Shown: one piece after another, positions 3,449 through 58,801 of the stretch
How the letters are laid out: the number at the start of each line of letters is the position of its first letter
Numbering within the stretch: position 1 is the stretch's first letter
Origin: Membranipora membranacea
Taxonomy: Eukaryota > Bryozoa > Gymnolaemata > Cheilostomatida > Membraniporidae
Direction: 5' to 3'
NCBI GenBank assembly: GCA_914767715.1
Contig: OU612075.1
Span: 9,610,001 to 9,674,000, forward strand
DNA length: 64,000 nucleotides
Notes under the pieces: generated by a model
Database searches by the model: none
Told to the model about the DNA's origin: nothing
The model's input: only the letters and a program-made list of their open reading frames with translations
Made by a program: the position numbers and the translations under genes

Positions 3449-3852
3449 TCACTTTCCTGGTACTCTGCAATATCCTCTGGGGCTACACATTTGAGGTGCT
3501 GTGCAGTGGCTGAAAAAAACATCAAATGAGATGGAATTATACAGACATGGAAGAGCTGCACCAAATATCATGCGTGCGAATACTAAAGTTTTTAATCAAC
3601 CGAAGCACATCCTATTTACCTTGTGAATCAGTTATGGAAATCAAAAGAAGCTTCAATCATTTCGTGAATCAATTCAAATTCAATTAAAAAAATCATCAAT
3701 AGTACCAATGTAAAATTTAATTGGTCCTAGAAGCCGTCTACAATAAAGAATGTCAGTAAATAATGGACTTACTGATGACTATCGCACTTTTTTGCCTCGG
3801 TGAATCCGGCTACCATCAGGAGTACTGCAACTGTTGCGGCAATTATCTTGAT
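3449..3852 (-). pseudogene. Decayed cysteine-rich peptide gene, copy A
   Basis: This is the leftmost member of the family described under copy B. The signal exon is 3773-3852 and the mature exon 3449-3509; the intron (3510-3772) keeps GT and AG. Three lesions are visible. The start codon is ATC instead of ATG (3850-3852). The TATA element upstream is altered (TATCAAA). The noncoding-exon donor region is replaced by an (ACTTT)n tract. The mature exon is still open and would read loops DSHHH, TAPQM and SPRGY between the four cysteines, then RVPGK and stop. A poly(A) signal remains at 3407-3412. Promoter, first exon and start are all damaged, so I infer an inactive copy; rescue by a downstream Met codon in the leader is unlikely to give a working signal peptide. 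Confidence 0.8.
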
Positions 3853-4107
3853 TCTTACTGTGATATAAAAACAGACAACAGCATCATGATAGTTTTTGTT
3901 TAGGTGACTACCCTGCTCAGATGAAAATGTTGTAACACCACATCGACTAGCAGGAGTTTAACATTGTACTTAGTTCTACCTTAGAGGAATAGAGGAATGC
4001 AGCATTCACAGGAGTCAAGTTGGCCTTTTTGCACCTTTGTTAGTGGACATTGATGCTAGCTCACATTGAGTCAACCCAGAACTTGCAGAACTAAACAGAA
4101 CAATAAG

Positions 4108-4135
4108 TTTTACTTTACTTTACTTTACTTTACTT
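4108..4135. repeat. (ACTTT)n microsatellite
   Basis: Five to six copies of a 5-bp unit, sitting where intact copies have the first-exon donor site of the minus-strand peptide gene. Confidence 0.85.
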
Positions 4136-4198
4136 GGTGTTTCTTCTTCTCTGTGAGTACTTGTTAAAGGACCTGCTGTTTGATAACTAATCAGCAAG

Positions 4199-4424
4199 CA
4201 GGGGCGTAGTTTAGGAAAAATGGTGGGGGAGGCAAAAGTCCGAGCCAAGTCAGAAGCATCACCAGTAGGGGTGCAGTAAACTCCTTAAGGCATATAACTG
4301 GCAAATTGATATCCCGGAGAAGCTGATTCTGACAAAGATCATTCAGTTATAGTTTTCTTAGGCCACTATTATTTAGCTTTCTAAGAGGCACTGCAGCCCT
4401 GCCTCCCCTAAAACTACAAGCCTG
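4199..4424. mobile_element. Possible hAT-like MITE, degraded
   Basis: The left end reads CAGGGGCGTAGTTTAGG and the right end, on the opposite strand, CAGGCTTGTAGTTTTAGG, an imperfect terminal inverted repeat like that of the better-supported element at 60071. Flanking 8-mers do not match, so a target-site duplication is not demonstrated. It interrupts the region upstream of decayed copy A and is absent at equivalent sites of the other units. Confidence 0.4.
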
Positions 4425-4526
4425 GCACGTTCTCTTGTACGTGGCAAGGATCGAAGTTGTTTTTCATCTAATGCAATGCTGGCGGATACCAGTGCTTCAG
4501 TTGCTTGTTTTCACTTTTGGGTATAC

Positions 4527-4581
4527 CAGCACATCACCAGCACATCACCAGCACATCACCAGCACATCACCAGCACATCAT
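4527..4581. repeat. 11-bp tandem repeat (CAGCACATCAC)x5
   Basis: Five near-perfect consecutive copies. A two-copy version sits at the equivalent site of units 2 and 3 (about 31827 and 49883), so the repeat number differs among units. Confidence 0.9.
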
Positions 4582-6987
4582 CAACTAAAATACCACTCTA
4601 ATCTATGCCCAGATACAAGAGTGAGTTGTTGATCCGATCCAATACCACATTGACGTTAAAGAGGTTGCATACAATCGGATGTTGTGAGAGCCAGGTATTT
4701 CATGGCGAAGTATCGTGGCTACTGATTCTGTCAACAGGATATAGAGAAACACATCCTGTCACTCAACTGCAAAATTTCCACGACCGAGTTTTGCTATTTC
4801 GTGAAAATGAATGCTTGATTTAAAGGTCTTTGCGTCAACACCTTTACACCAGCGACACCTCAGAATCTGATATAATGGTTGGCCCAAAGTCCGATTATTT
4901 AAGTCAACTACATTGAGGGATATGTTGTATATGGTCTCTCAATTCTTTCAAATGATCAATATCTGTTTTGTGAGCAGGGAGTTCCGTCAATAGATTCTTT
5001 ATTTCTTTTTCTCTGTACCGCTGGAGACAATTTTGGAAAGAGAAATTGTTTCCTTCTTGCCTCTGTTTCTCTGTTTTTGCACTGGCATTTGACAAGCATA
5101 GTCTAGGGAGTCAGGAGTGGTCTCAAGGTGAAAAGTTTAGATTTGTGTCTTGTTAGGTCCAAGTTCAGTTCTCGGCACAGACGGTCATTCCTGATTTGGT
5201 ACTGGTATGCCATTCATCCTCGCAAGGTCCTTGCTGAGCGGAACTAAAATAACAGAGGTCCACTAAGTCTATACACATCCCACATGCAGTAAAAATGATC
5301 TCCTCTGCAGCTGCTCAATATATAGAGCGCAATGGTTCCCTGTACCTGTAGCCTATAGAGGATAACTCTCTCCGCATAGAAGACTTTGACATAGCACGAT
5401 CGCTTTTGCTGATTAAAGGGAATAGAGATCATATCACAATAATAAGACCTCAATGCTGACGGTGTGTTTTTAACAGCTCATATCTGTAACTGCAACAAAC
5501 AAATCTCAAAAGACTACACAACATGCATAGGATCAAAGTTCTTTTTCATCTGATATGATGCTGGTGGATACCGATGATGCAAATATGCAGCCAAAGTGGA
5601 GAAACTTTGACATCAAGTTGTGCTTGATGCACGGTTAGAACTTTCTTCCAGGTTTTTTTTACGCTATGTAGAAGCCTTGCACAAGCTGATTCTGAACCCT
5701 GGTGTTAAAGATTCCCTGCTTGAGATGCGTATTTGCACCGTTGGTATCGACCAGCACAGAATTCCTCATAGAAATCAAAGCTTCAGACAAACGGATGCTG
5801 TGAAATTCAGGTATTTTATGATGAATTGTCATGTGATTACCAATTCTGTTAACAGGATATGGAGCAACACATCCTGTATCTCAACTGAAAAGTTTCCACG
5901 ACCGATTTTTGTTATTAAGTGAAAATAAACGATTGATGTAAAGGTTCTTGCGCCAACACCTTTACACTAGCAACACCTCAGAATCAAAATACTTCCACTG
6001 GGTGGTTCAAAATCCAGATTTTAAACTCCACTACATTGGGGGATATGTTGCATAGTCTCTCAATCATTTTAAATCATCAGTATCTGTTTTGTGAGCTAGC
6101 CCAGAAGCAGTAATTTCTATCAATAGATTCTGGAAGCCAAAAACAAGCACATATTTCTTTTTCTCAGTAGGTTATGCTGGGGACAATTTCCAAAAAAGAC
6201 ATGGTTTCGTGTCTTGCCTCTGTTTCTCTGCTTTTTGCACTCGCAATTGATAAGCATTATTTAATATTTAGGGAGTCAGGAGTGGTCGAAAGATTAGGGA
6301 GCAGACTAGTGTTCTGTTAGGTCCAAATACAATTCTCGGCACCGACAGTCATTCTTGATTTGGTACTGGCAGGCCATTCATCCTCACCAGGTCCTTGCGA
6401 AGCAGGATTTAAATTCGAGAGGTCCACTGTCTGTTTACTCATCCCACATGCAATAAATTTGATCCCCTCTGTAGCTCTTCAATATTTCTATTATTTCTTA
6501 GAGTCATAGTGCAGCAAAAAATTGTTCAGCAACTGTAAGGGAAAACCTTTACATCAAGTGCTCGATTTCACGCAATAACAAAGCTCGGTCAGTGAAATTT
6601 TCCAGTAGAGTGACATGATGTGTTTCTCTACATCTTGTTAACAGAATTGGTAATCACATGACGATTCACCATGAAGTACCTGAATTTCACAGCATCCGTA
6701 TGTCTGAAGCCTTGATATCTATGAAGAGTTCAGTGCTGGTGTATACCAACAGTGCAAATTTGCAACTCAAGCTGCACATCTTTAACGCCAGGGTTCAGAA
6801 TCAGCTCATGCAAGGTTTCAACATAGAGAAAAATATCTTGAAGAATCTTAAACCTTGCATTAGCACAACCTGATGTCAAAGTATCTCCGCTTGGGCTGCA
6901 TATTTGCCCCACTGGTATCCGCCAGCATTGCATTAGATGAAAATGAACTTTGATCCTTGCCACGTACAAGAGATCTCGCTGATTAAC

Positions 6988-7072
6988 TATAAAAACAGCA
7001 GGTCTTGTAACAAGTACTCACAGAGAAGAAGCACACAGAGTTAAGATTACAACAAGTCTGAAACACCCACAG
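6988..7072 (+). promoter_or_regulatory. TATA box and noncoding first exon of copy B
   Basis: TATAAAAA at 6988-6995. The predicted start is about 30 bp downstream, and the noncoding exon ends at 7072 before a GTGAGT donor. The same layout is conserved in the other copies on both strands. Confidence 0.65.
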
Positions 7073-7734: not shown

Positions 7735-8178
7735 ATGAAGATAATCGCCGCAACAGTTGCAGCACTCCTGATGGTAGCTGGATTCACCGAGGCACAAAAA
7801 TGCCGTGGTCATATGTGAGTACAGTATTTACTGATATTCTTTATTGTAAAAGGTCTCTAAGACCAATTAAATTTTACGTTCATACTCATAATGAGTTTTT
7901 TTAATTGAATCAAGGAGTTGTAGACCTCCTTGATTGAATCTAAGTTGATTCACGAAATGATCAAAGATACTTTTGATTTCCACAACTAATACACAAGGTT
8001 AATAGGAAGTGCTTTGGTTAATTGAAAACTTTTTTGGTTTGATGTCGATGTCGATGTTTGTGTTGATGTTTGTGTTGATGTTGTTGTTGATGTTATATTT
8101 GATGTCTTTTTCAGGGACTGCCAATTACCTAGAAAATGTAGCCCCAGAGGATATTGCAGAATGGAGTGGGGGAAGTAA
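7735..8178 (+). CDS. Secreted cysteine-rich amidated peptide precursor, copy B
   Basis: Type member of the family. Exons are 7735-7814 and 8115-8178, joined in phase 2; a 5' noncoding exon ends at 7072 and the acceptor is TATTCACAG just before the start. The 47-residue product starts MKIIAATVAALLMVAGFTEA, a typical signal peptide with likely cleavage after TEA. The mature peptide begins QKC (possible pyroglutamate) and has four cysteines with loops RGHMD, QLPRK and SPRGY (C-x5-C-x5-C-x5-C). It ends RMEWGK-stop, where Gly-Lys fits carboxypeptidase trimming and C-terminal amidation. Six Lys/Arg against two acidic residues make it cationic. AATAAA lies at 8213-8218. I recognise no named family. 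Two disulfides are inferred; host-defence or toxin-like activity is a hypothesis only. Confidence 0.85.
8040..8100. repeat. GATGTT-rich microsatellite before the mature-exon acceptor
   Basis: Impure (GATGTTTGTGTT)n / (GATGTCGATGTT) tract about 15-75 bp upstream of the acceptor of copy B. Plus-strand copies D, E, G, H and J carry the same tract in different lengths; minus-strand copies lack it. It may affect branch-point spacing. Confidence 0.8.
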
Positions 8179-12639: not shown

Positions 12640-13043
12640 TCACTTTCCTGGTACTCTGCAATATCCCCATGGGCTACACATTTGAGGTGCTGTGCAGTGG
12701 CTGAAAAGAACATCAAATGAGATGGAATTATACAGACATGGAAGAGCTGCGCCAAAATTCATGCGTGCGAATACTAAAGTTTTTAATCAACCGAAGCACA
12801 TCCTATTTACCTTGTGAATCTGTTATGGAAATCAAAAGAAGCTTCAATCATTTCGTGAATGAATTCAAATTCAATTAAAAAAATCATCATTAGTACCAAT
12901 GTAAAATTTAATTGGTCCTAGAAGCCGTTTACAATAAAGAATGTCAGTAAATAATGGACTTACTGATGGCCATCGCACTTTTTTGCCTCGGTGAATCCGG
13001 CTGCCATCAGGAGTACTGCAACTGTTGCGGCAATTATCTTCAT
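12640..13043 (-). CDS. Secreted cysteine-rich amidated peptide precursor, copy C
   Basis: Signal exon 12964-13043, intron 12701-12963, mature exon 12640-12700; 46 residues. The leader differs slightly from copy B (..VLLMAAGFTEA) and the mature part starts KKC rather than QKC. Loops are DGHHH, TAPQM and SPWGY, ending RVPGK-stop. The three consecutive histidines and the tail are shared by all minus-strand copies. This copy alone has Trp instead of Arg in the third loop, because the usual AGCCCCAGAGGA reads AGCCCATGGGGA. Poly(A) signal at 12599-12604. The minus-strand subfamily looks distinct from the plus-strand one, so the pair may give two different mature peptides. Confidence 0.82.
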
Positions 13044-13549: not shown

Positions 13550-13634
13550 CAGTGAGTGTGAGATACTTGTTGTAGACTTTACTTTGTGTTTCTTCTTCTC
13601 TGTGAGTACTTGTTACAGGACCTGCTGTTTTATA
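13550..13634 (-). promoter_or_regulatory. TATA box and noncoding first exon of copy C
   Basis: TATAAAA on the minus strand (13628-13634). The noncoding exon ends at 13550 before a GTAAGT donor. The sequence is homologous, in inverted orientation, to the promoters of the plus-strand copies. Confidence 0.65.
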
Positions 13635-13704
13635 GTTAATCAGCAAGCAAGTCTGCAAAATTCACAAGACCGATTTTTGCTATTGTGTGAAATTGAGCGC
13701 TTGA

Positions 13705-13734
13705 TGTAAAGGTTTTTGCGCCAACACCTTTACA
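13705..13734. repeat. TGTAAAGGT / ACCTTTACA hairpin junction
   Basis: A perfect 9-bp inverted repeat around a 12-nt loop (TTTTGCGCCAAC). Further copies sit at 5937-5966, 14954-14983 and 16127-16156, and at matching places in units 2 and 3; the right arms carry it inverted. It marks the joints between sub-repeats and may be the abutted ends of a TIR element. Confidence 0.7.
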
Positions 13735-16700
13735 CTGGCAACACCTCAGAATCAAAATACTTCCAAAGGGTGGCCTGAAATCCAGATTTTGAACTCTACA
13801 GCATTGAGGGATATGTTGCATTGTCTCTCAATCATTTTAAATCATCAGTATCTGTTTTGTGAGCTAGCACAGTAGCAGTAATTTCTATCAATAGATTCTG
13901 GAACCCAGAAAACCAGCAATTTTCTCCGTAGGTTTTTATTTTTAAATGTTTATTGACAAGCAATCTTCATCATTAAAATGATGTTCTTCCTATTGTGCCA
14001 AGATAAAACAAACATTAATAAATATGGAATAAATAAATAGCGAAGAAATATGGAAGATAGAGACTAACAATGAAAATGGTTATGTCTTAGACATGTAGTG
14101 CATTATTTAGGGGGTCAGGAGTGGTCGAAAGATTAGGGTGCGGACTCGTGTTCTGTTACGTCCAAATACCATTCTCGGCACCGACGGTCATTCTTGATTT
14201 GGTACTGGCATGCCATTCATCCTCAGCAGGTCCTTGCGGAGCAGGATTTAAATACGGGAGCTCCACTGTCTGTTTACACATCCCACATGCAGTAAAAATG
14301 ATCCCCTCTGCAGCTCTTCGATAAAGTGTGCAATGGGTCCCAGTACCTGTACTCTATAGAGGATAACTCTCTCCTTAAAGAAGACTTTGACATAGCTTGA
14401 TCGCCTTTGCTGAGTAAGGAAATAGAGATCATATCGCAATAATAAAACCTCAATGCTGACGGTGTGTTTTTAGCAGCTCATAACTGTAACTGCAACAAAC
14501 AAAGATCATAAGACTACACAAATTGCATGCACTCTCTTGTACAAGGCAAGGATCAAAGTTCTTTTTCATCTGATATGATGCTGGTGGATACCGATGATGC
14601 AAATATGCAGCCAAAGCGGAGAAACTTTAACATCAAGTTGTGCTTTATGCAAGCTTTGAATTTTCTTCAAGGTTGTTTTTCTCTATGTAGTAACCTTGCA
14701 CAAGCTGATTCTGAACCCTGGTGTTAAAGATTCGCTGCTTGAGATGCATATTTGCATCGTTGGTATCGACCAGCACCGAATTCCTCATAGATATCAAAGC
14801 TTCAGACAAACGGATGCTGTGAAATTCAGGTATTTTATAATGAATTGTCATGTGATTACCAGTTCTGTTAACAGGATATGGAGCAACACATCCTGTATCT
14901 CAACTGAAAAGTGTCCATGACCGATTTTCGTTATTTAGTGAAAATAAACTTGATGTAAAGGTTTTTGCGCCAACACCTTTACACTGGCAACACCTCAAAA
15001 TCAAAATACTTCCAATGGGTGGCCCAAAATCCAGATTTTAAACTCCACTGCATTGATGGATATGTTGCACAGACTCTCGATCATTTTAAATCATCAGTAT
15101 CTGTTTTGTGAGCTAGCACAGAAGCAGTAATTTCTATCAATAGATTCTGGAAGCCAGAAAACCAGCACTTATATATTTTTCTCTGTACCGCTGGAGACAA
15201 TTTTAGAAAAAGAAATTGTTGCTAAACTTGCCTCAGTTTCTCTGTTTTTGCACTCGCATTTGACAAGCATTGTTTAGGGAGTCTGGAGTAGTCTCGAGGT
15301 GAAAAGTTTAAACTCGTGATCTGTTAGGTCCAAGATCAGTTCTCGGCACCGAAGGACATTCCTGATTTGGTATTGGTATGCCATTCATCCTCGCAAGGTC
15401 CTTGCTGAGCGGAACTAAAATAACGGAGGTCCACTAAGTCTATACACATCCCACATGCAGTAAAAATGATCTCCTCTGCAGCTGCTCAATATATAGAGCG
15501 CAATGGTTCCCTGTACCTGTAGTCTATAGAGGATAACTCTCTCCGCAAAGAAGACTTTGACATAGCACGATCGCTTTTGCTGATTAAAGGGAATAGAGAT
15601 CATATCACAATAATAAGACCTCAAAGTTGAGGGTGTGTTTTTAGCAGCTCATATCTGTAACTGCAACAAACGAATCCCAAAAGACTACACAACATGCATA
15701 CACTCTCTTGTACAAGGCAAGGATCAAAGTTCTTTTTCATCTGATATGATGCTGGTGGATACCGATGATGCAAATATGCAGCCAAAGCGGAGAAACTTTG
15801 ACATCAAGTTGTGCTTTATGCAAGGTTTGAACTTTCTTCCAGGTTTTTTTTACGCTATGTAGAAACCTTGCACAAGCTGATTCTGAACCCTGGTGTTAAA
15901 GATTCGCTGCTTGAGATGCGTATTTGCACCGTTGGTATCGACCAGCACAGAATTCCTCATAGATATCAAAGCTCCAGACAAACGGATGCTGTGAAATTCA
16001 GGTATTTTATAATGAATTGTCATGTGATTACCAATTCTGTTAACTGGATATGGAGCAACACATCCTGTATCTCAACTGAAAAGTTTCCACGACCGATTTT
16101 GTTATTAAGTGAAAATAAACGATTGATGTAAAGGTTCTTGCACCAACACCTTTACACTGGCAACACCTCAGAATCAAAATACTTCCAAAGGGTGGCCTGA
16201 AATCCAGATTTTGAACTCTACAGCATTGAGGGATATGTTGCATTGTCTCTCAATCATTTTAAATCATCAGTATCTGTTTTGTGAGCTGGCACAGAAGCAG
16301 TAATTTCTATCAATAAATTCTGGAAGCCAGAAAACCAGCACTTTTTTATTTTTCTCTGTACCGCTGGCGACTATTTTAGAAAAAGAAATTGTTTCTAAAC
16401 TTGCCTCAGTTTCTCTGTTTTTGCACTCGCATTTGACAAGCATTGTCTAGGGAGTCAGGAGTGGTCTCCAGGTGAAAAGTTTAGACTCGTGATCTGTTAG
16501 GTCCAAGATCAGTTCTCGGCACCGGAGGTCATTCCTGATTTGGTACTGGTATGCCATTCATCCTTGCCAGGTCCTAACTGAACGGAACTAAAATAACGGA
16601 GGTCCAAAATTTCTTTAAACATCCCATATTCAGTAAAAATGATCTTAAATATAAAGAGCGCAATGGGTCCCAGTACCTGTACTCTATAGAATATAACTCT

Positions 16701-16863
16701 CTCCGCATAGAAGACTTTGACATAGCTTGATCACCTTTACTGAGTAAGGAAATAGAGATCATATCACAATAATAAAACCTCAATGCTGACGGTGTGTTTT
16801 TAGCAGCTCATATCTGTAACTGCAACAAACAAATCCCAAAAGACCACAAAAAAATCATACACT

Positions 16864-17300
16864 TATTATTTCTTAGAGTTTTGGTGCGGCAAATCATTAA
16901 GTATGTAACCTGGTATGTTCTACTTACTTCAGAAACACTTTCATCTTCTCGCAGCTAGCAGTAAAGGGTTGGCCAACCTCTAATTTGATGTGAACATCAT
17001 TCTTCTTGGTTGGTTTTTTACCTACAACTGCCAGAAAAATAAATCAAACATTTAACATCCAGCATACATCCACTAATACCAAATTCCTTTCTCATTTGGT
17101 TATACAACAATCTTTGTTTGTTTAGGTTTGGACCCCAACTGCTTGTTTATTTGGTTGGAAGGTAATATGATTATAATATATAGAGCCGGCATCAACTGGC
17201 AACGACAAGATAAATTGTGTGTTTTGAAATTTTAGGCAACAGCTATTCCCTTACAGTTGCTGAACAATTTTTTGCTGCACTATGACTCTAAGAAATAATA
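16864..17300. mobile_element. Central inverted-repeat element of P1a, deleted form
   Basis: Bounded by about 17 bp of TATTATTTCTTAGAGT inverted terminal sequence, with a further match over GTGCGGCAAA/GTGCAGCAAA. It contains the minus-strand Cys exon relic described at 23831, but 23 bp between two TACAA direct repeats are missing. Reading from the acceptor now meets a stop at once, so this copy is broken. No clear target-site duplication. Confidence 0.5.
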
Positions 17301-18278
17301 GAAATATTGCAGAGCTACAGAGGGGATCATTTTTATTGCATGTGGGATGAGTAAACAGACAGTGGACCTCTCTTATTTAAATCCTGCTTCGCAAGGACCT
17401 GGTGAGGATGAATGGCCTGCCAGTACCAAATCAAGAATGACCGTCGGTGCCGAGAATTGTATTTGGACCTAACAGAACACGAGTCTGCTCCCTAATCTTT
17501 GGACCACTCCTGACTCCCTAGATAATGCTTATCAATTGCGAGTGTTAAAAGCAGAGAAACAGAGGCAAGACACGAAACCATGTCTTTTTTGGAAATTGTC
17601 TCCAGCATAACCTACTGAGAAAAAGAAATATGTGCTTGTTTTTGGCTTCCAGAATCTATTGATAGAAATTACTGCTTCCGGGCTAGCTCACGAAACAGAT
17701 ACTGATGATTTAAAATGATTGAGAGACTATGCAACATATCCCCCAATGTAGTGGAGTTTAAAATCTGGATTTTGGACCACCCAGTGGAAGTATTTTGATT
17801 CTGAGGTGTTGCTAGTGTAAAGGTGTTGGCGCAAAAACCTTAACATCAAGTGCTCGATTTCACGCAATAACGCAGCTCGGTCATGGAAATTTCCAGTAGA
17901 GTGACAGGATGTGTTTCTCTACATCCTGTTAACAGAATTGGTAATCACATGACGATTCACCATAAAATACCTGAATTTATTAGCATCCATTTGTCTGAAG
18001 CCTTGATATCTAAGAAGAGTTCAGTGCTGGTATATACCAACAGTGCAAATACGCATCTCAAGCTGCACATCTTTAACGCCAGGGTTCAGAATCAGCTTGT
18101 GCAAGGTTTCAACATAGAGAAAAATATCTTGAAGAATCTTAAACCTTGCATTAGTACAACCTGATGTCAAAGTATCTCCGCTTGGGCTGCATATTTGCCC
18201 CACTGGTATCCGCCAGCATTGCATTAGATGAAAATGAACTTTGATCCTTGCCACGTACAAGAGATCTCGCTGATTAAC

Positions 18279-18363
18279 TATAAAAACAGCAGGTCTTGTA
18301 ACAAGTACTCACAGAGAAGAAGCACACAGAGTTAAGATTACAACAAGTCTGAAACACTCACTG
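18279..18363 (+). promoter_or_regulatory. TATA box and noncoding first exon of copy D
   Basis: TATAAAAA at 18279-18286; exon end 18363 before GTAAGT. Confidence 0.65.
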
Positions 18364-19025: not shown

Positions 19026-19463
19026 ATGAAGATAATCGCCGCAACAGTTGCAGCACTCCTGATGGTAGCTGGATTCACCGAGGCACAAAAATGCCGTGGT
19101 CATATGTAAGTACAGTATTTACTGATATTCTTTATTGTAAAAGGTCTCTAAGACCAATTAAATTTTACGTTCATACTCATAATGAGTTTTTTTAATTGAA
19201 TCAAGGAGTTGTAGACCTCCTTGATTGAATCTAAGTTGATTCACGAAATGATCAAAGATACTTTTGATTTCCACAACTAATACACAAGGTTAATAGGAAG
19301 TGCTTTGGTTAATTGAAAACTTTTTAGGCTTGATGTCAATGTCGATGTTTGTGTTGATGTTTGTGTTGATGCTGATGTTAAATTTCATGTCTTTTTCAGG
19401 GACTGCAAATCACCTACAAAATGTAGCCCCAGAGGATATTGCAGAATGGAGTGGGGGAAGTAA
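19026..19463 (+). CDS. Secreted cysteine-rich amidated peptide precursor, copy D
   Basis: Exons 19026-19105 and 19400-19463; 294-bp intron with GTAAGT donor; 47 residues. The leader and first loop (RGHMD) are identical to copy B. The second loop is KSPTK instead of QLPRK, while SPRGY and the RMEWGK tail are kept. All amino-acid differences from B therefore fall in one loop of the mature peptide. Poly(A) signal 19498-19503. Copy G in the next unit encodes the same protein. Confidence 0.85.
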
Positions 19464-22340: not shown

Positions 22341-22655
22341 TTTTTCAAACTCCTTGTCCCACATGCAGTAAAAATGATCTCCTCTGCAGCTGCTCAATAT
22401 ATAGAGCGCAATGGTTCCCTGTACCTGTAGTCTATAGAGGATAACTCTCTCCGCAAAGAAGACTTTGACATAGCACGATCGCTTTTGCTGATTAAAGGGA
22501 ATAGAGATCATATCACAATAATAAGACCTCAAAGTTGAGGGTGTGTTTTTAACAGCTCATATCTGTAACTGCAACAAACAAATCTCAAAAGACTACACAA
22601 CATGCATACACTCTCTTGTACAAGGCAAGGATCAAAGTTCTTTTTCATCTGATAT

Positions 22656-22856
22656 GATGCTGGTGGATACCGATGGTGCAAATATGCAGCCAAAGCGGAG
22701 AAACTTTGACATCAAGTTGTGCTTTAAGCAAGGTTTGAACTTTCTTCCAGGTTGTTTTTCGCTATGTAGAAACCTTGCACAAGCTGATTCTGAACCCTGG
22801 CTTTAAATATTCGCTGCTTGAGTTGCATATTTGCACCATTGGTATCGACCAGCACC
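22656..22856. repeat. Long imperfect hairpin (~80-85 nt arms)
   Basis: Arms 22656-22736 and 22770-22856 share GATGCTGGT.GATACC.ATGGTGCAAATATGCA and GTGC..AAGCAAGGTTT in opposite orientation. Related hairpins occur in the other left-arm sub-repeats (near 14577, 15747, 40664, 50992, 52162) and inverted in the right arms. The left hairpin arm is deleted in the first sub-repeat of unit 2 (near 32805). Confidence 0.65.
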
Positions 22857-23770
22857 AAATTCCACAAAGACATCAAAGCTTCAGAAAAACGGATGCTGTG
22901 AAATTCAGGTATTTTATAATGAATTTTCATGTGATTACCAATTCTGTTAACAGGATATGAAGCAACACATCCTGTATCTCAACTGAAAAGTTTCCACGAC
23001 CGATTTTTGTTATTTAGTGAAAATAAACGATTGATGTAAAGGTTTTTGCGCCAACACCTTTACACTGGCAACACCTCAGAATCAAAATACTTCCAATGGG
23101 TGGCCCAAAATCCAGATTTTAACTCCACTACATTGGGGGATGTGTTGCATAGTCTCTCAATCATTTAAAATCATCAGTATCTGTTTTGTGAGCTAGCACA
23201 GAAGCAGCAATTTTTATCAATAGATTCTGGAAGCCAGAAAACCAGCACTTATTTATCTTTCTCTGTACCGCTGGAGACAATTTTAGAAAAAGAAATTGTT
23301 TTTAAACTTGCCTCAGTTTCTCTGTTTTTGCACTCGCATTTGACAAGCATTGTCTAGGGAGTCAGGAGTGGTCTCCAGGTGAAAAATTTACACTCGTGAT
23401 CTGGTAGGTTCACGTGCAGTTCTCGGCACCGAAGGTCATTCCTGATTTGGTACTGGTATGCTATTCATCCTTGCCAGGTCCTAACTGAACGAAACTAAAA
23501 TAACGGAGGTCCAAAATTTCTTTAAACATCCCATATGCAGTAAAAAAGATCTTCAGAATAAAGAGCGCAATGGGTCCCAGTACCTGTACTCTAAAGAGGA
23601 TAACTCTCTCCGCATAGAAGACTTTGACATAGCTTGATTACCTTTGCTGAGTAAGGAACAGGAGATCATATCACAATAATAAAACCTCAATGCTGACGGT
23701 GTGTTTTTAGCAGCTCATATCTGTAACTGCAACAAACAAATCCCAAAAGACCACAAAAAGATCATACACT

Positions 23771-37038: not shown

Positions 37039-37476
37039 ATGAAGATAATCGCCGCAACAGTTGCAGCACTCCTGATGGTAGCTGGATTCACCGAGGCACA
37101 AAAATGCCGTGGTCATATGTAAGTACAGTATTTACTGATATTCTTTATTGTAAAAGGTCTCTAAGACCAATTAAATTTTACGTTCATACTCATAATGAGT
37201 TTTTTTAATTGAATCAAGGAGTTGTAGACCTCCTTGATTGAATCTAAGTTGATTCACGAAATGATCAAAGATACTTTTGATTTCCACAACTAATACACAA
37301 GGTTAATAGGAAGTGCTTTGGTTAATTGAAAACTTTTTAGGCTTGATGTCAATGTCGATGTTTGTGTTGATGTTTGTGTTGATGCTGATGTTAAATTTCA
37401 TGTCTTTTTCAGGGACTGCAAATCACCTACAAAATGTAGCCCCAGAGGATATTGCAGAATGGAGTGGGGGAAGTAA
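37039..37476 (+). CDS. Secreted cysteine-rich amidated peptide precursor, copy G
   Basis: Exons 37039-37118 and 37413-37476; 47 residues, predicted protein identical to copy D (loops RGHMD, KSPTK, SPRGY; tail RMEWGK). Poly(A) signal 37511-37516. It is the unit-2 counterpart of D. Confidence 0.85.
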
Positions 37477-39460: not shown

Positions 39461-41777
39461 TTGAAAATTGCTGTCTAGAAATTGACTTGAATAAGCATGG
39501 AATTTCTGAAATCAACTTGTATATTTCTTGTGTAATTCTGGGTGGAATAAGGATTGATTTTTCCGGTATTCAAATATCTAGGGTGAAAATCTCCAGGGTA
39601 TTAAAATATTTGAGATGTTTACCCGATGGTATTCAGACACCCAGAGACAATATATCATGATGTAAATCACCACAAGTATAGATGAGACATAGCTAGTAAT
39701 ATAGTAACCACATTTGCAGGGTATTGAATTATAATTCCAATGCAAATGTTTGATGGGGGATAGAGAGACTGAAAATAAATCGTTCATTCACCATTTAAAA
39801 ACCATCTGAGGAACTTAGACCAGATAAAAGTAGTGAAAGTACTTAAATAAGCCCTTTCTAACACCTAAGTGACAATGGGAGGCATAACATACCACGTTTG
39901 ACTGATGAAAACCGCCATTGATTACCAAATTATGAGGCAAATTTATGGCCATGTCTGCAGTGAAACTTTCCCTTCTCATATGAGTAGCAGAGGGCTTTGG
40001 AGTCCCAGGTAAAACTAGACTATAGTTTGAAACATGGACTATACCTGAGTGCTATCTATATCTCTCTGCTACTTAGTTTAGTTTCTTTTCAAGATGTTCA
40101 AACACTTTAGGAAATTTGCGGTAGAACCCATCTTCATAAATGGGATTTCACAGCTATGCTCTTGCTGATTGGACAGTTCATCAAAATTATTACAGCAACT
40201 CACGTTGTACTTCTTTTTGGCAGGAAGTCACTCGCTGCAGTCTCTGCTCTGATTGGCTGTGGTCATGAAAAACCTTTACTGATAAAGAGAGGACAATTAC
40301 CAGTGGAGACAAACAACAATTTGAAATGAGAGGCCGTTTCCCCTCCTTTTTCAAACTCTTTGTCCCACATGCAGTAAAAATGATCTCCTCTGCAGCTGCT
40401 CAATATATAGAGCGCAATGGTTCCCTGTACCTGTAGTCTATAGAGGATAACTCTCTCCGCAAAGAAGACTTTGACATAGCACGATCGCTTTTGCTGATTA
40501 AAGGGAATAGAGATCATATCACAATAATAAAGCCTCAAAGTTGAGGGTGTGTTTTTAACAGCTCATATTTGGTAACTGCAACAAACAAATCTCAAAAGAC
40601 TACACAACATGCATACACTCTCTTGTACAAGGCAAGGATCAAAGTTCTTTTTCATCTGATATGATGCTGGTGGATACCGATGGTGCAAATATGCAGCCAA
40701 AGCGGAGAAACTTTGACATCAAGTTGTGCTTTAAGCAAGGTTTGAACTTTCTTCCAGGTTGTTTTTCGCTATGTAGAAACCTTGCACAAGCTGATTCTGA
40801 ACCCTGGCTTTAAATATTCGCTGCTTGAGTTGCATATTTGCACCATTGGTATCGACCAGCACCAAATTCCACAAAGACATCAAAGCTTCAGAAAAACGGA
40901 TGCTGTGAAATTCAGGTATTTTATAATGAATTTTCATGTGATTACCAATTCTGTTAACAGGATATGAAGCAACACATCCTGTATCTCAACTGAAAAGTTT
41001 CCACGACCGATTTTTGTTATTTAGTGAAAATAAACGATTGATGTAAAGGTTTTTGCGCCAACACCTTTACACTGGCAACACCTCAGAATCAAAATACTTC
41101 CAATGGGTGGCCCAAAATCCAGATTTTAACTCCACTACATTGGGGGATGTGTTGCATAGTCTCTCAATCATTTAAAATCATCAGTATCTGTTTTGTGAGC
41201 TAGCACAGAAGCAGCAATTTTTATCAATAGATTCTGGAAGCCAGAAAACCAGCACTTATTTATCTTTCTCTGTACCGCTGGAGACAATTTTAGAAAAAGA
41301 AATTGTTTTTAAACTTGCCTCAGTTTCTCTGTTTTTGCACTCGCATTTGACAAGCATTGTCTAGGGAGTCAGGAGTGGTCTCCAGGTGAAAAATTTACAC
41401 TCGTGATCTGGTAGGTTCACGTGCAGTTCTCGGCACCGAAGGTCATTCCTGATTTGGTACTGGTATGCTATTCATCCTTGCCAGGTCCTAACTGAACGAA
41501 ACTAAAATAACGGAGGTCCAAAATTTCTTTAAACATCCCATATGCAGTAAAAAAGATCTTCAGAATAAAGAGCGCAATGGGTCCCAGTACCTGTACTCTA
41601 AAGAGGATAACTCTCTCCGCATAGAAGACTTTGACATAGCTTGATTACCTTTGCTGAGTAAGGAACAGGAGATCATATCACAATAATAAAACCTTAATGC
41701 TGACGGTGTGTTTTTAGCAGCTCATATCTGTAACTGCAACAAACAAATCCCAAAAGACCACAAAAAGATCATACACT

Positions 41778-42256
41778 TATTATTTCTTAGAGTCTTGGTG
41801 CAGCAAATCATTAAGTATGTAACCTGGTATGTTCTACTTACTTCAGAAACCCTTTCATCTTCTCACAGCTAGCAGTAGAGGGATGGCCAACCTCTAATTT
41901 GATGTGAACATCATTCTTCTTGGTTGGATTTTTACCTACAACCAAGGAATACTCCTTGCTACAACTGCCAGAAATACAAATCAAACATTTAACATCCAGC
42001 ATACATCCACTCATACCTGATTCCTTTCTCATTTGGTTATACAACAATCTCTGTTTGTTTAGGTTTGGACCCCAACTGCTTATTTATTTGGTTAGAAGGT
42101 GTGCTGCGTTCGAATATGGTAATATGATTATAATATATAGAGCCGGCATCAACTGGCAACGACAAGATAAATTGTGTGTTTTGAAATTTTAGGCAACCGG
42201 TATTCCCTTACAGTTGCTAAACAATTTTTGCCGCACTATGACTCTAAGAAATAATA
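41778..42256. mobile_element. Central inverted-repeat element of P2b, full form
   Basis: Retains the undeleted Cys exon, 41838-41964 on the minus strand. Confidence 0.5.
41838..41964 (-). other. Candidate two-cysteine exon, second intact copy
   Basis: Same reading as at 23831-23957 over the exon; upstream codons differ by Ile to Met. Function unknown. Confidence 0.35.
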
Positions 42257-43164
42257 GATATATTTAAGAGCTACAGAAGGGATCATTTTTATTGCATATG
42301 GGATGAGTAAACAGACAGTGGACCTCCCGTATTTAAATCCTGCTTCGCAAGGACCTGCTGAGGATGAATGGCAGGCCAGTACCAAATCAAGAATGACCGT
42401 CGGTGCCGAGAATTGTATTTGGACCTAACAGAACACGAGTCTGCTCCCTAATCTTTGGACCACTCCTGACTCCCTAGATAATGCTTATCAATTGCGAGTG
42501 TTAAAAGCAGAGAAACAGAGGCAAGACACGAAACCGTGTCTTTTTTGGAAATTGTCTCCAGCATAATCTACTGAGAAAAAGAAATAATTATGTGCTTGTT
42601 TTTGGCTTCCGAAATCTGTTGATATAAATTACTGCTTCTGGGCTTCTGGGAGTTTAAAATCTGGATTTTGGACCACCCAGTGGAAGTATTTTGATTCTGA
42701 GGTGTTGCTAGTGTAAAGGTGTTGGCACAAAAACCTTTACATCAAGTGCTCGATTTCAAGCAATAACAAAGCTCGGTCAGTGAAATCTTCCAGTAAAGTG
42801 ACAGGATGTGTTTCTCTACATCCTGTTAACAGAATCGGTAATCACATGACGATTCACCATGAAATACCTGAATTTCACAGCATCCGTTTGTCTGAAGCCT
42901 TGATATCTATGAGGAATTCGGTGCTGGTCGATACCAACGGTGCAAATATGCATCTCAAGCAGCGAATCTTTAACACCAGGGTTCAGAATCAGCTTGTGCA
43001 AGGTTTCAACATAGCTTGAATAATCTTAAACCTTGCATTAGCACAACCTGATGTCAAATTATCTCCGCTTGGCTGCATATTTGCCCCACCGGTATCCGCC
43101 AGCATTGCATTAGATGAAAATGAACTTTGATCCTTGCCACGTACAAGAGATCTCGCTGATTAAC

Positions 43165-43247
43165 TATAAAAACAGCAGGTCTTGTAACAAGTACTCACAG
43201 AGAAGAAGCACACAGTTAAGATTACAACAAGTCTCAAACACTCACTG
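43165..43247 (+). promoter_or_regulatory. TATA box and noncoding first exon of copy H
   Basis: TATAAAAA at 43165-43172; exon end 43247 before GTGAGT. Confidence 0.65.
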
Positions 43248-43878: not shown

Positions 43879-44290
43879 ATGAAGATAATCGCCGCAACAG
43901 TTGCAGTACTCCTGATGGTAGCTGGATTCACCGAGGCACAAAAATGCTATGGTCATAAGTAAGTACAGTATTTACTGATATCCTTTATTGTAAAAGGTCT
44001 CTAAGACCACTTAAATTTTACGTTCATACTAATAATGATTTTTTTTAATTGAATCTAAGTTGATTCACGAAATGATTGAAGATACTTTTGATTTCCACAA
44101 CTGATACACAAGGTTAATAGGAAGTGCTTTGGTTAATTGAAAACTTGTTTGGCTTGATTTCGATGTCGATGTTTGTGTTGATGTTTGTGTTGATGTTGTT
44201 GTTGATGTTATATTTGATGTCTTTTTCAGGGACTGCCAATTACCTAGAAGATGTAGCCCCAGAGGATATTGCAGCATGGAGGGGAAGTAA
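43879..44290 (+). CDS. Secreted cysteine-rich amidated peptide precursor, copy H
   Basis: Exons 43879-43958 and 44230-44290; 46 residues. Same as copy E (loops YGHKD, QLPRR, SPRGY; tail SMEGK) except that the mature part starts QKC rather than QQC. Poly(A) signal 44325-44330. Confidence 0.85.
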
Positions 44291-48816: not shown

Positions 48817-49220
48817 TCACTTTCCTGGTACTCTGCAATATCCTCTGGGGCTACACATTTGAGGTGCTGTGCAGTGGCTGAAAAGAACATCAAATGAGAT
48901 GGAATTATACAGACATGGAAGAGCTGCGCCAAAATTCATGCGTGCGAATACTAAAGTTTTTAATCAACCGAAGCACATCCTATTTACCTTGTGAATCTGT
49001 TATGGAAATCAAAAGAAGCTTCAATCATTTCGTGAATCAATTCAAATTCAATTAAAAAAATCATCATTAGTACCAATGTAAAATTTAATTGGTCCTAGAA
49101 GCCGTTTACAATAAAGAATGTCAGTAAATAATGGACTTACTGATGGCCATCGCACTTTTTTGCCTCGGTGAATCCGGCTGCCATCAGGAGTACTGCAACT
49201 GTTGCGGCAATTATCTTCAT
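48817..49220 (-). CDS. Secreted cysteine-rich amidated peptide precursor, copy I
   Basis: Signal exon 49141-49220, mature exon 48817-48877. Predicted protein identical to copy F (DGHHH, TAPQM, SPRGY, RVPGK). Poly(A) signal 48776-48781. Confidence 0.85.
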
Positions 49221-49726: not shown

Positions 49727-49811
49727 CAGTGAGTGTGAGATACTTGTTGTAGACTTTACTTTGTGTTTCTTCTTCTCTGTGAGTACTTGTTACAGGACCT
49801 GCTGTTTTATA
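49727..49811 (-). promoter_or_regulatory. TATA box and noncoding first exon of copy I
   Basis: TATAAAA on the minus strand (49805-49811); exon end 49727 before GTAAGT. Confidence 0.65.
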
Positions 49812-52800
49812 GTTAATCAGCAAGCAATTCTGAGGTTAATGTTGTTGTGCTTCAGTTGCTTGTTTTCACTTTTGGGTATACCAGCATATCACCAGCACAT
49901 CATCAGCTAAAATACCAGATACCCAGATACAAGAGTGAGTTGTTGATCCGATCCAATACCACATTGACGTTAAAGAGGTTGCATACAATCGGATGTTGTG
50001 AGAGCCAGGTTTTTCGTGGCTACTGATTCTGTCAACAGGATATAGAGAAACACATCCTGTCACTAAACTGCAAAATTCACAAGACCGATTTTTGCTATTG
50101 TGTGAAATTGAGCGCTTGATGTAAAGGTTTTTGCGCCAACACCTTTACACTGGCAACACCTCAGAATCAAAATACTTCCAAAGGGTGGCCTGAAATCCAG
50201 ATTTTGAACTCTACAGCATTGAGGGATATGTTGCATTGTCTCTCAATCATTTTAAATCATCAGTATCTGTTTGTGAGCTAGCACAGTAGCAGTAATTTCT
50301 ATCAATAGATTCTGGAACCCAGAAAACCAGCAATTTTCTCCGTAGGTTTTTATTTTTAAATGTTTATTGACAAGCAATCTTCATCATTAAAATGATGTTC
50401 TTCCTATTGTGCCAAGATAAAACAAACATTAATAAATATGGAATAAATAAATAGCGAAGAAATATGGAAGATAGAGACTAACAATGAAAATGGTTATGTC
50501 TTAGACATGTAATGCATTATTTAGGGGGTCAGGAGTGGTCGAAAGATTAGGGTGCGGACTCGTGTTCTGTTAGGTCCAAATACCATTCTCGGCACCGACG
50601 GTCATTCTTGATTTGGTACTGGCATGCCATTCATCCTCAGCAGGTCCTTGCGGAGCAGGATTTAAATACGGGAGGTCCACTGTCTGTTTACACATCCCAC
50701 ATGCAGTAAAAATGATCCCCTCTGCAGCTCTTCGATAAAGTGTGCAATGGGTCCCAGTACCTGTACTCTATAGAGGATAACTCTCTCCTTAAAGAAGACT
50801 TTGACATAGCTTGATCGCCTTTGCTGAGTAAGGAAATAGAGATCATATCGCAATAATAAAACCTCAATGCTGACGGTGTGTTTTTAGCAGCTCATAACTG
50901 TAACTGCAACAAACAAAGATCATAAGACTACACAAATTGCATGCACTCTCTTGTACAAGGCAAGGATCAAAGTTCTTTTTCATCTGATATGATGCTGGTG
51001 GATACCGATGATGCAAATATGCAGCCAAAGCGGAGAAACTTTAACATCAAGTTGTGCTTTATGCAAGCTTTGAATTTTCTTCAAGGTTGTTTTTCTCTAT
51101 GTAGTAGCCTTGCACAAGCTGATTCTGAACCCTGGTGTTAAAGATTCGCTGCTTGAGATGCATATTTGCATCGTTGGTATCGACCAGCACCGAATTCCTC
51201 ATAGATATCAAAGCTTCAGACAAACGGATGCTGTGAAATTCAGGTATTTTATAATGAATTGTCATGTGATTACCAGTTCTGTTATCAGGATATGGAGCAA
51301 CACATCCTGTATCTCAACTGAAAAGTGTCCACGACCGATTTTCGTTATTTAGTGAAAATAAACTTGATGTAAAGGTTTTTGCGCCAACACCTTTACACTG
51401 GCAACACCTCAAAATCAAAATACTTCCAATGGGTGGCCCAAAATCCAGATTTTAAACTCCACTGCATTGATGGATATGTTGCACAGACTCTCGATCATTT
51501 TAAATCATCAGTATCTGTTTTGTGAGCTAGCACAGAAGCAGTTATTTCTATCAATAGATTCTGGAAGCCAGAAAACCAGCACTTATATATTTTTCTCTGT
51601 ACCGCTGGAGACAATTTTAGAAAAAGAAATTGTTGCTAAACTTGCCTCAGTTTCTCTGTTTTTGCACTCGCATTTGACAAGCATTGTTTAGGGAGTCTGG
51701 AGTAGTCTCAAGGTGAAAAGTTTAGACTCGTGATCTGTTAGGTCCAAGATCAGTTCTCGGCACCGAAGGACATTCCTGATTTGGTATTGGTATGCCATTC
51801 ATCCTCGCAAGGTCCTTGCTGAGCGGAACTAAAATAACGGAGGTCCACTAAGTCTATACACATCCCACATGCAGTAAAAATGATCTCGACTGCAGCTGCT
51901 CAATATATAGAGCGCAATGGTTCCCCGTACCTGTAGTCTATAGAGGATAACTCTCTCCGCATAGAAGACTTTGACATAGCACGATCGCTTTTGCTGATTA
52001 AAGGGAATAGAGATCATATCACGATAATAAAACCTCAAAGTTGAGGGTGTGTTTTTAACAGCTCATATCTGTAACTGCAACAAACAAATCTCAAAAGACT
52101 ACACAACATGCATACACTCTCTTGTACAAGGCAAGGATCAAAGTTCTTTTTCATCTGATATGATGCTGGTGGATACCGATGATGCAAATATGCAGCCAAA
52201 GCGGAGAAACTTTGACATCAAGTTGTGCTTGATGCAAGGTTTGAACTTTCTTCCAGGTTTTTTTTACGCTATGCAGAAACCTTGCACAAGCTGATTCTGA
52301 ACCCTGGTGTTCAAGATTCGCTGCTTGAGATGCGTATTTGCACCGTTGGTATCGACCAGCACAGAATTCCTCATAGATATCAAAGCTCCAGACAAACGGA
52401 TGCTGTGAAATTCAGGTATTTTATAATGAATTGTCATGTGATTACCAATTCTGTTAACAGGATATGGAGCAACACATCCTGTATCTCAACTGAAAAGTTT
52501 CCACGACCGATTTTTGTTATTAAGTGAAAATAAACGATTGATGTAAAGGTTCTTGCGCCAACACCTTTACACTGGCAACACCTCAGAATCAAAATACTTC
52601 CAAAGGGTGGCCTGAAATCCAGATTTTTAACTCTACAGCATTGAGGGATATGTTGCATTGTCTCTCAATCATTTTAAATCATCAGTATCTGTTTTGTGAG
52701 CTAGCACAGAAGCAGTAATTTCTATCAATAAATTCTGGAAGCCAGAAAACCAGCACTTATTTATTTTTCTCTGTACCGCTGGAGACAATTTAACTTGCCT

Positions 52801-53256
52801 CAGTTTCTCTGTTTTTGCACTCGCATTTGACAAGCATTGTCTAGGGACTCAGGAGTGGTCTCAAGGTGAAAAGTTTAGACTCATGATCTGTGAGGTCCAA
52901 GATCAGTTCTCGGCACCGAAGGTCATTCCTGATTTGGTACTGGTATGCTATTCATCCTTGCCAGGTCGTAACTGAACGGAACTAAAATAACGGAGGTCCA
53001 AAATTTCTTTAAACATCCCATATGCAGTAAAAATGATCTTAAATATAAAGAGTGCAATGGGTCCCAGTACCTGTACTCTATAGAGGATAACTCTCTCCGC
53101 ATAGATGACTTTGACATAGCTTGATCACATTTGCTGAGTAAGGAACAGGAGATCGTATCACAATAATAAAACCTCAATGCTGACGGTGTGTTTTTAGCAG
53201 CTCATATCTGTAACTGCAACAAACAAATCCCAAAGACCACAAAAATATCATACACT

Positions 53257-53693
53257 TATTATTTCTTAGAGTTTTGGTGCGGCAAATCATTAAGTATGTA
53301 ACCTGGTATGTTCTACTTACTTCAGAAACACTTTCATCTTCTCACAGCTAGCAGTAAAGGGTTGGCCAACCTCTAATTTGATGTGAACATCATTCTTCTT
53401 GGTTGGTTTTTTACCTGCGACTGCCAGAAAAATAAATCAAACATTTAACATCCAGCATACATCCACTAAGACCAAATTCCTTTCTCATTTGGTTATACAA
53501 CAATCTTTGTTTGTTTAGGTTTGGACCCCAACTGCTTGTTTGTTTGGTTGGAAGGTAATATGATTATAATATATAGAGCCGGCATCAACTGGCAACGACA
53601 AGATAAATTGTGTGTTTTGAAATTTTAGGCAACCGCTATTCCCTAAAAGTTGCTGAACAATTTTTTGCTGCACTATGACTCTAAGAAATAATA
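53257..53693. mobile_element. Central inverted-repeat element of P1c, deleted form
   Basis: Carries the same 23-bp deletion as P1a and P1b, showing that the lesion predates amplification of the 18-kb unit. Confidence 0.5.
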
Positions 53694-54668
53694 GAAATAT
53701 TGCAGAGCTACAGAGGGGATCATTTTTATTGCATGTAGGATGCGTAAACAGACAGTGGACCTCTCGTATTTAAATCCTGCTTCGCAAGGACCTGGTGAGG
53801 ATGAATGGCATGCCAGTACCAAATCAAGAATGACCGTCGGTGCCGAGAATTGTATTTGGACCTAACAGAACACGAGTCCGCACCCTAATCTTTCGACCAC
53901 TCCTGACTCCCTAAATATTAAATAATGCTTATCAATTGCGAGTGCAAAAAGCAGAGAAACAGAGGCAAGACACGAAACCATGTCTTTTTTGGAAATTGTC
54001 TCCAGCATAACCTACTGAGAAAAAGAAATATGTGCTTGTTTTTGGCTTCCAGAATCTATTGATAGAAATTACTGCTTCCGGGCTAGCTCACGAAACAGAT
54101 ACTGATGATTGAGAGACTATGCAACATATCCCCCAATGTAGTGGAGTTTAAAATATGGAATTTGGACCAACCTGTGGAAGTATTTTGATTCTGAGGTGTT
54201 GCTAGTGTAATGGTGTTGGCGCAAAAACCTTAACATCAAGTGCTCGATTTCACGCAATAACGCAGCTCGGTCATGGAAATTTCCAGTAGAGTGACAGGAT
54301 GTGTTTCTCTACATCCTGTTAACAGAATTGGTAATCACATGACGATTCACCATAAAATACCTGAATTTAATAGCATCCATTTGTCTGAAGCCTTGATATC
54401 TAAGAAGAGTTCAGTGCTGGCATATACCAACAGTGCAAATTTGCAACTCAAGCTGCACATCTTTAACGCCAGGGTTCAGAATCAGCTCATGCAAGGTTTC
54501 AACATAGAGAAAAATATCTTGAAGAATCTTAAACCTTGCATTAGCACAACCTGATGTCAAAGTATATCCGCTTGGGCTGCATATTTGCCCCACTGGTATC
54601 CGCCAGCATTGCATTAGATGAAAATGAACTTTGATCCTTGCCACGTACAAGAGATCTCGCTGATTAAC

Positions 54669-54753
54669 TATAAAAACAGCAGGTCTTGTAACAAGTACTC
54701 ACAGAGAAGAAGCACACAGAGTTAAGATTACAACGAGTCTGAAACACTCACTG
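54669..54753 (+). promoter_or_regulatory. TATA box and noncoding first exon of copy J
   Basis: TATAAAAA at 54669-54676; exon end 54753 before GTAAGT. Confidence 0.65.
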
Positions 54754-55415
54754 GTAAGTTTTAAAAAAATGATGACAGAAAGATTGAGAAAGAGATTGAA
54801 AATATTTACTGTGAGACTTGCCTAGGGCAAGTACAGTTCATCACTTTGACAATAAAAACTCAATGACACACTTTCTTAAATTTGTTGGGCTTTTGTCTTT
54901 GTTTATATCTTTGGATTTATCATGCATCATCTTGTATCTGTGGAAATGCTATACTTCCTTTTTTTTGAAAAACATATAGTGAATGATTGAGAAAAATATC
55001 GAAAACATTTACAGTGAGACTTGCATAGGGCAAATACAGTTTTTTAAGGCGCGCATACATCACTACGCCAATAAATACTTTTTTATCGTAAACCCCTATG
55101 ATACTGATAGATCAAAATTAATAAATCATTCAATCAAAGACAATGATCAGTCACCTTCATGATAAATTTCCTAGAGGAGGGAAAAGTGATTAATTGCTAC
55201 CTGAGGGTACCTACTGTTAGCTGGTAGTTTGCAAAAAGGCCAACTTTACTCCTGTGAATGCTCTATTCCTATAAAGAAGAACTTAGTACTATGTTAACTT
55301 TGAGAAGCAGCATCTCCTAGCCGATGCAGTGTTACAACATTCTCATCTGAGCAGAGCATTCACCTAAACAATAACTATCCTCTCACTATTGTCTATTTTT
55401 ATATTCACAGTAAAA

Positions 55416-55827
55416 ATGAAGATAATCGCTGCAACAGTTGCAGCACTCCTGATGGTAGCTGGATTCACCGAGGCACAAAAATGCGGTGGTATGCTGTAAG
55501 TACAGTATTTACTGATATTCTTTATTGTAAAAGGTCTCTAAGACCAATTAAATTTTATGTTCATACTAATTATGAGTTTTTTTAATTGAATCTAAGTTGA
55601 TTCACGAAATGATCAAAGAAACTTTTGATTTCCACAACTAATACACAAGGTTAATAGGAAGTGCTTTGGTTAATTGAAAACTTTTTAGGCTTGATGTCAA
55701 TGTCGATGTTTGTGTTGATGTTTGTGTTTGTGTTGATGCTGATGTTATATTTCATGTCTTTTTCAGGGACTGCAAATTACCTAAAAAATGTTGGAGAGGA
55801 TATTGCAGAACGGTGTGGGGGAAGTAA
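55416..55827 (+). CDS. Secreted cysteine-rich amidated peptide precursor, divergent copy J
   Basis: Exons 55416-55495 and 55767-55827; 46 residues. The leader matches copy D, but the mature part is the most changed: QKC with loops GGMLD, KLPKK and WRGY, tail RTVWGK-stop. The third loop has four residues instead of five because the codons for Ser-Pro are replaced by one Trp codon. Splice sites, frame, the amidation-type end and AATAAA (55862-55867) are intact, so it is not an obvious pseudogene. It could be a neofunctionalised edge copy or an early decaying one. Confidence 0.8.
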
Positions 55828-58800: not shown

Positions 58801-58801
58801 G

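Follow-up and report, generated by a model that had tools for sequence, protein, structure and literature searches.

In a stretch of the genome of the bryozoan Membranipora membranacea, we observed a tandem family of short split genes, ten copies of which nine are open, that encode four-cysteine peptides with a signal-like start. The stretch, referred to here as the window, is 64,000 nucleotides long (GenBank assembly GCA_914767715.1, contig OU612075.1, positions 9,610,001 to 9,674,000 of the forward strand), and all positions below are counted within it. Judged from the gene sequences, the family is very likely real and working. We propose that it would provide lineage-restricted, secreted, amidated, mini-knottin-like effector peptides, most likely for host defence; taken as a whole, we regard this proposal as evenly balanced between right and wrong. 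Among the plus-strand genes the part encoding the mature peptide has changed faster than the DNA around it, and the peptides fit the spacing of a two-disulfide scaffold known from other organisms.

Structure of the genes

A BLASTN search with the exons of the first copy returned ten pairs of a signal exon and a mature exon, four on the minus strand and six on the plus strand. The same ten were the strong matches to nhmmer profiles of both exons, in agreement with the preliminary description of the window, which had reported ten copies with one split structure. Its finer details were borne out by scripted splicing in every copy: the signal exon is 80 nucleotides (nt) long and ends in phase 2, the coding intron (263-300 nt) is bounded by a GT(A/G)AGT donor and a CAG acceptor, the mature exon measures 61 or 64 nt, and an AATAAA follows the stop. 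Nine copies start with ATG and are open, as had been stated, and only the copy at 3852-3449 on the minus strand lacks it.

Each copy encodes four cysteines, with two residues ahead of the first, and ends in Gly-Lys-stop. The spacing first claimed for the family, C-x5-C-x5-C-x5-C, was found in nine copies; in the copy at 55416-55827 the last interval is one residue shorter (5/5/4), so the claim is right for nine of the ten. The mature part comes directly after the signal, with no propeptide, no dibasic processing site between the two and no repeated peptide units. Behind the likely cleavage site of the signal (..FTEA, placed by eye), the mature part would begin with Gln in the plus-strand copies and with Lys in the minus-strand copies. 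If amidated, the peptides would have a net charge of +2 to +5, which agrees with their being described as cationic, and the view of the family as one of several copies encoding small, secreted peptides rich in disulfides was likewise supported. The nine open copies amount to seven distinct mature sequences.

We also scanned the window with a loose two-exon four-cysteine pattern. This gave nine matches, the number of open copies; 20 shuffled versions, which fell 0-9 bases short of the window's length, each gave none. When ATG starts with a signal-like sequence were sought, exactly the nine open copies came up. A relic of the 3' end of an eleventh, decayed copy was seen at 58791-58858 on the plus strand (nhmmer E 2.8e-6), with stops in all three frames.

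A C-terminal Gly-Lys is an amidation signal in peptide processing and is trimmed to a C-terminal amide. Since this ending is present in 10/10 copies and a signal-like start in 9/10 (the cleavage site being placed by eye), the products have the features of amidated secreted peptides, and we consider their amidation likely.

Upstream of the coding exons, the nine open copies have a block in common. It holds an exact 17-nt core with a TATA box, and extends for 85-87 nt from ACTATAAAA to a GGT(A/G)AGTT donor; the corresponding acceptor, TTTTATATTCACAG, stands five bases ahead of the ATG in the open copies. The TATA core occurs nine times exactly and once with three mismatches, where 0.63 occurrences would be expected by chance at three or fewer mismatches. 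The inexact core is that of the copy without ATG, and no matching exon-0 donor was found in that copy. The genes thus probably have three exons, with a putative non-coding exon 0 as the first, because the nine open copies share both the TATA core and the candidate exon and both are decayed in the copy without ATG. That promoter, untranslated exon and ATG have decayed together in one copy, and are intact together in nine, argues that they belong to one gene.

The elements of the six plus-strand genes are given here in the order core promoter (TATA) with putative exon 0, signal exon, mature exon. They lie at 6978-7072, 7735-7814 (coding part) and 8115-8178 in gene 1 (AATAAA at 8213); at 18269-18363, 19026-19105 and 19400-19463 in gene 3 (AATAAA at 19498); at 25149-25241, 25873-25952 and 26224-26284 in gene 4 (AATAAA at 26319); at 36283-36377, 37039-37118 and 37413-37476 in gene 6 (AATAAA at 37511); at 43155-43247, 43879-43958 and 44230-44290 in gene 7 (AATAAA at 44325); and at 54659-54753, 55416-55495 and 55767-55827 in gene 9, the copy with the shortened last spacing (AATAAA at 55862). 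On the minus strand the same elements, now in the order mature exon, signal exon, core promoter with putative exon 0, occupy 12640-12700, 12964-13043 and 13550-13644 in gene 2 (AATAAA at 12604); 30761-30821, 31085-31164 and 31671-31765 in gene 5 (AATAAA at 30725); and 48817-48877, 49141-49220 and 49727-49821 in gene 8 (AATAAA at 48781). The pseudogene, also on the minus strand, has its mature exon at 3449-3509 (AATAAA at 3412), its signal exon, with the start codon lost, at 3773-3852, and the decayed remnant of promoter and exon 0 at 4127-4198.

Divergence among the copies

We compared the plus-strand genes using four distinct paralogues, with two near-duplicates left out. The mean pairwise difference in the mature part was 0.120, as against 0.017 in the signal codons and 0.041 in the intron, and the flanks gave 0.018 upstream and 0.020 and 0.038 downstream. 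When the two mature parts were taken apart, the values were 0.217 and 0.086. None of the 1041 other overlapping 84-nt segments reached 0.120, the highest value being 0.066. The mature part of this class therefore diverges three to seven times as much as the neighbouring DNA, and nearly all of the divergence is at amino-acid-changing sites: star counts from one gene gave about 20 amino-acid-changing differences in the mature codons and 0.2 silent ones. Expressed per site, 10.1% of non-synonymous sites differed, compared with 2.6% of sites in the intron and 3' flank taken together (Fisher P 2e-6). The three paralogues taken separately gave P values of 0.23, 0.021 and 7e-6; roughly half of the signal is therefore due to the copy at 55416. 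These results establish an excess of amino-acid change in the plus-strand class, and the family is at least partly diversifying. Between the plus-strand and minus-strand classes, identity in three pairs was 52-67% over the whole mature exon versus 72-75% in the intron.

Some positions did not change. In the six sequences compared by codon, all four cysteines are kept, as are Gly 25 and Pro 32, the Arg-Gly-Tyr that precedes the last cysteine, and the Gly-Lys at the end; in the open copy at 12640-13043, Trp replaces the Arg of this Arg-Gly-Tyr.

Arrangement of the array and its surroundings

Comparison of the window with itself revealed that 7642-57739 is built of tandemly duplicated units, each about 18 kb long and with two plus-strand copies and one minus-strand copy; a part unit at the left end of the array carries the decayed copy. 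Identity between the units is for the most part 96-99.5% across long stretches and drops locally to 92-95%. Their flanks differ from unit to unit, and the array is therefore not one locus read several times.

A repeat cassette of about 1.1 kb is present in many copies and in both orientations, within 4668-6860, 13665-18151, 22357-25008, 31971-36165, 40363-43014 and 50027-54541. Its end is exactly 5 bases ahead of the promoter core in every one of the six plus-strand genes; for the three open genes on the minus strand the distance is 21, 206 and 206 bases. A coding role for the open reading frames in repeats and spacers was considered and set aside, as the five that were tested had no Pfam match below E 0.1; the differences in such frames were only weakly uneven across codon positions. 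The cassette is apparently non-coding.

Beyond the array, a C-type-lectin-like gene was seen on the minus strand at 59327-60900, with what looks by eye like the start of a signal peptide at 60900. Its last exon (about 59550-59327) matched C-type lectins in the PDB, best of all codakine, a bivalve lectin (E 2e-4); the exon had no Pfam match and no homologue was found for it, and the middle of the gene showed no clean splicing. At the other end of the window, an open frame at 1-297 on the minus strand resembles, by eye, the tail of a retrotransposon protein of the type without long terminal repeats. A DarP match in Pfam on this fragment (E 0.004, below the curated cut-off) was not believed. We also noted a repeat at 61279-61453, with about 1.9 copies of a 90-bp unit, and, at 60130-60210, a short G+C-rich stretch with the look of an inverted repeat in A+T-rich surroundings (by eye). 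Scanning the window with Rfam and for tRNAs returned nothing.

Searches for relatives

The searches made returned no sequence relative of these peptides. Pfam gave no family for five of the seven distinct open-copy proteins (lowest E 0.051) and NCBIfam none for three of the seven, and the lowest E in PHROGs, also for three of the seven, was 0.22. A homologue search with one protein, which reaches only close word-sharing relatives, found none; a search with the seven-sequence alignment had three candidates, none of them with an E of 10 or less. Contigs of viruses and prokaryotes, scanned for the DNA pattern, contained no match, and the exact string C-X5-C-X5-C-X5-C was not found in the literature searched.

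The preliminary description could fit the peptides to no nameable family. This stands for sequence families, for which the searches were empty, but not for the type of scaffold, since the spacing fits the disulfide-directed beta-hairpin (DDH), or cystine-stabilised beta-sheet core. It had also called the family lineage-restricted. The empty searches are consistent with this, although several of them cover viruses and prokaryotes and the protein search reaches only close word-sharing relatives. As predicted from the genes, the scaffold is unusually small and amidated.

Comparison with known scaffolds

The published DDH consensus, described for spider toxins (PMC3381931, PMC11891777), is Cys-X4-19-Cys-X2(G/P)X2-Cys-X4-19-Cys (PMC3381931). 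We observed that all seven distinct mature sequences conform to it, and that the central Pro stays the same as the residues around it change. Sequence similarity to the DDH peptides was not found, and a DDH fold of the peptides studied here is a prediction.

The 5/5/5 spacing recurs unchanged in the cyanobacterial lectin scytovirin, where it ends in G-F-C, and the scytovirin bonds Cys20-32 and Cys26-38 correspond to I-III and II-IV (PMC3407925), the pairing given for the DDH in the KASH2 paper (PMC11891777). Unlike the present peptides, scytovirin has 95 residues, an internal duplication and five disulfides, and it comes from a cyanobacterium (PMC3407925). In the squash trypsin inhibitors, cysteines 2-6 with cysteine 4 skipped give 5/5/5, and the printed sequences have a G-Y-C end (PMC7565491); these knottins differ in their own first cysteine and third disulfide, both missing here, and in their plant origin, and there was no significant similarity. 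Compared in a fixed register, scytovirin and the squash inhibitors shared 2-4 of 15 residues outside the cysteines (permutation P 0.008-0.24 in nine comparisons without correction). This is a similarity of scaffold and no evidence of descent, and homology to either was set aside as unproven (marginal identity; for scytovirin, PDB E 0.15-0.49). Min-23, a designed two-disulfide knottin core of 23 residues that folds alone and tolerates substitutions (PMC2659701, PMC6259850), is about the same size as the peptides here (24-25 residues).

Other classes were tried and rejected. The inhibitory loop of the squash trypsin inhibitors is located between cysteines 1 and 2; no such loop is present here, where only two residues stand before the first cysteine. 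Six cysteines and three disulfides are described for the inhibitor cystine knot, and the pattern CxxxxxCxxxxxCC with four disulfides for the WAP four-disulfide core, whereas each copy here has four cysteines and no CC. Xibalbins 2 and 4 have part of the spacing in common, but contain more cysteines (PMC5577568).

Among the characterised animal peptides found, KASH2, a KARTESH peptide of the sea star Asterias rubens, appears to be the nearest in kind. It is secreted, has four cysteines, 26 residues when amidated and a C-terminal Gly-Lys/Arg signal (PMC11891777). It adopts the DDH fold with I-III/II-IV bonds, the protein rises after injury, and human fibroblast proliferation was unaffected by it; KARTESH peptides are reported from echinoderms only (PMC11891777). 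In the KASH family the mature part is preceded by an acidic propeptide with a site for convertase cleavage (PMC11891777); neither is found in the bryozoan genes. There was also no sequence match between the two.

The antimicrobial peptide gomesin is shorter than the present peptides, and its cysteines are closer together. It combines an N-terminal pyroglutamate, an amide and two disulfides (PMC13001179), a combination that resembles the one predicted here for the plus-strand genes. Mussel CRP-I is likewise a clustered multigene family with pseudogenes, knottin-like and with positive selection mentioned, but it has a C-C-CC-C-C array, a propeptide and four exons (PMC10138031); the array and the propeptide are both absent here.

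Discussion

The proposed explanation is a recently duplicated tandem family that would produce secreted effector peptides of 24-25 residues, from genes laid out as TATA promoter, non-coding exon 0, signal-peptide exon and mature exon. The 20-residue signal would be removed after ..FTEA, the terminal Lys trimmed, and the Gly converted to a C-terminal amide. An N-terminal Gln is able to close to pyroglutamate, and the plus-strand products, with a new N-terminal Gln, may do so. The cysteines would pair I-III and II-IV to give a cystine-stabilised beta-sheet, that is, the disulfide-directed hairpin that forms the two-disulfide knottin core; from the spacing, we lean somewhat towards a mini-knottin fold of this kind. 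The frame (four cysteines, one Gly, the central Pro, the G-Y before the last cysteine and the amidation signal) is kept; the loop residues vary between copies, like recognition surfaces. The peptides would serve in defence against microbes or parasites, through binding or membrane attack. Host defence is the most likely of the roles, with venom next and signalling third; as a claim in itself we hold it tentatively, at a little under even weight. More speculatively, the family may be a natural counterpart of Min-23: an amidated, bare two-disulfide knottin core used as a tandem-duplicated recognition scaffold, its loops diversifying under selection and without a known relative. We think this possible, but rather less than probable.

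Several observations weigh against the explanation in terms of defence peptides on a mini-knottin scaffold. The peptides are hydrophilic, and a charge of only +2 to +5 is modest for membrane killers. Because the DDH consensus is loose, the match to it is a fit and no proof, and in one paper the DDH bonds are given as C1-C4 and C2-C3 (PMC4942781). None of the PDB matches reached significance: scytovirin had E values of 0.15, 0.16 and 0.49, a surface protein of a trypanosome 0.59 and amyloid-beta A4 1.4. The KASH2 entries 8V2M and 8V2U were not among the matches at E up to 10. The divergence signal falls to 6.8% versus 2.6% (P 0.014) without the copy at 55416. Of the ten plus-class pairs, six have P below 0.05, four of which involve that copy, and the near absence of silent changes gives, on its own, P 0.024. 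All of these P values are indicative only, because star counting may double-count shared change and possible gene conversion between copies breaks independence. The minus class, with two distinct open sequences, has one changing and two silent differences, and no diversification was seen in it. Between the classes, synonymous divergence (pS 0.36-0.55) exceeds non-synonymous divergence (pN 0.25-0.33), and the comparison of mature part with intron was significant in none of the ten cross-class pairs (P 0.23-0.58).

A use in venom or in a deterrent secretion, where the same processed mini-knottin would target receptors or ion channels in prey animals or in predators, we judge to be rather unlikely. 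Tandem duplication, a conserved signal with a variable mature part, the C-terminal amide signal and the fit to a consensus described for spider toxins would all be expected of such peptides. Many venom precursors, however, carry a propeptide; here none lies between signal and mature part, and no Pfam or NCBIfam family was matched. The lectin-like neighbour is uninformative on this point. The preliminary description had offered host defence or venom; both are plausible, and the present evidence does not separate them.

Chemical signalling, by pheromones, gamete or sibling recognition peptides, or fast-evolving hormones, is less probable still. The amidation signal and the possible pyroglutamate are typical of signalling peptides, and tandem, fast-changing copies are also found in pheromone families. 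A near-identical multi-copy dosage and a cationic charge are less typical of them, and the precursors have neither repeated peptide units nor a dibasic site between signal and mature part. We consider it improbable that the peptides are lectin-like or enzyme inhibitors, comparable to scytovirin (mannose binding) or the squash inhibitors (protease inhibition): although the exact spacing is common to both, the squash inhibitory loop, which stands before the second cysteine, has no counterpart here, and the identity outside the cysteines (2-4 of 15) is marginal. That the copies are functionless, either silent duplicates from a local 18-kb duplication or a mis-assembled repeat, might be suggested by units that are mostly 96-99.5% alike over many kb and by one decayed copy and one decayed relic, but is very improbable given that 9/10 open reading frames and TATA cores are intact, that 10/10 copies keep the splice sites of the coding intron, that the flanks differ between units, and that the plus-class mature part changes faster than its flanks with the frame kept.

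Two-disulfide beta-hairpin cores have been discussed as both ancestors and derivatives of the widespread knottin fold (PMC11891777, PMC3381931, PMC4942781), and KASH2 was presented as the first case, from anywhere but the arachnids, of such a core standing alone in nature (PMC11891777). The bryozoan family, if it has the fold and processing proposed here, would contribute a scaffold that is minimal, at 24-25 residues, and amidated in nature. Its close paralogues, with their fixed frame and changing loops, would allow a direct test of which residues matter for the fold and which for recognition.

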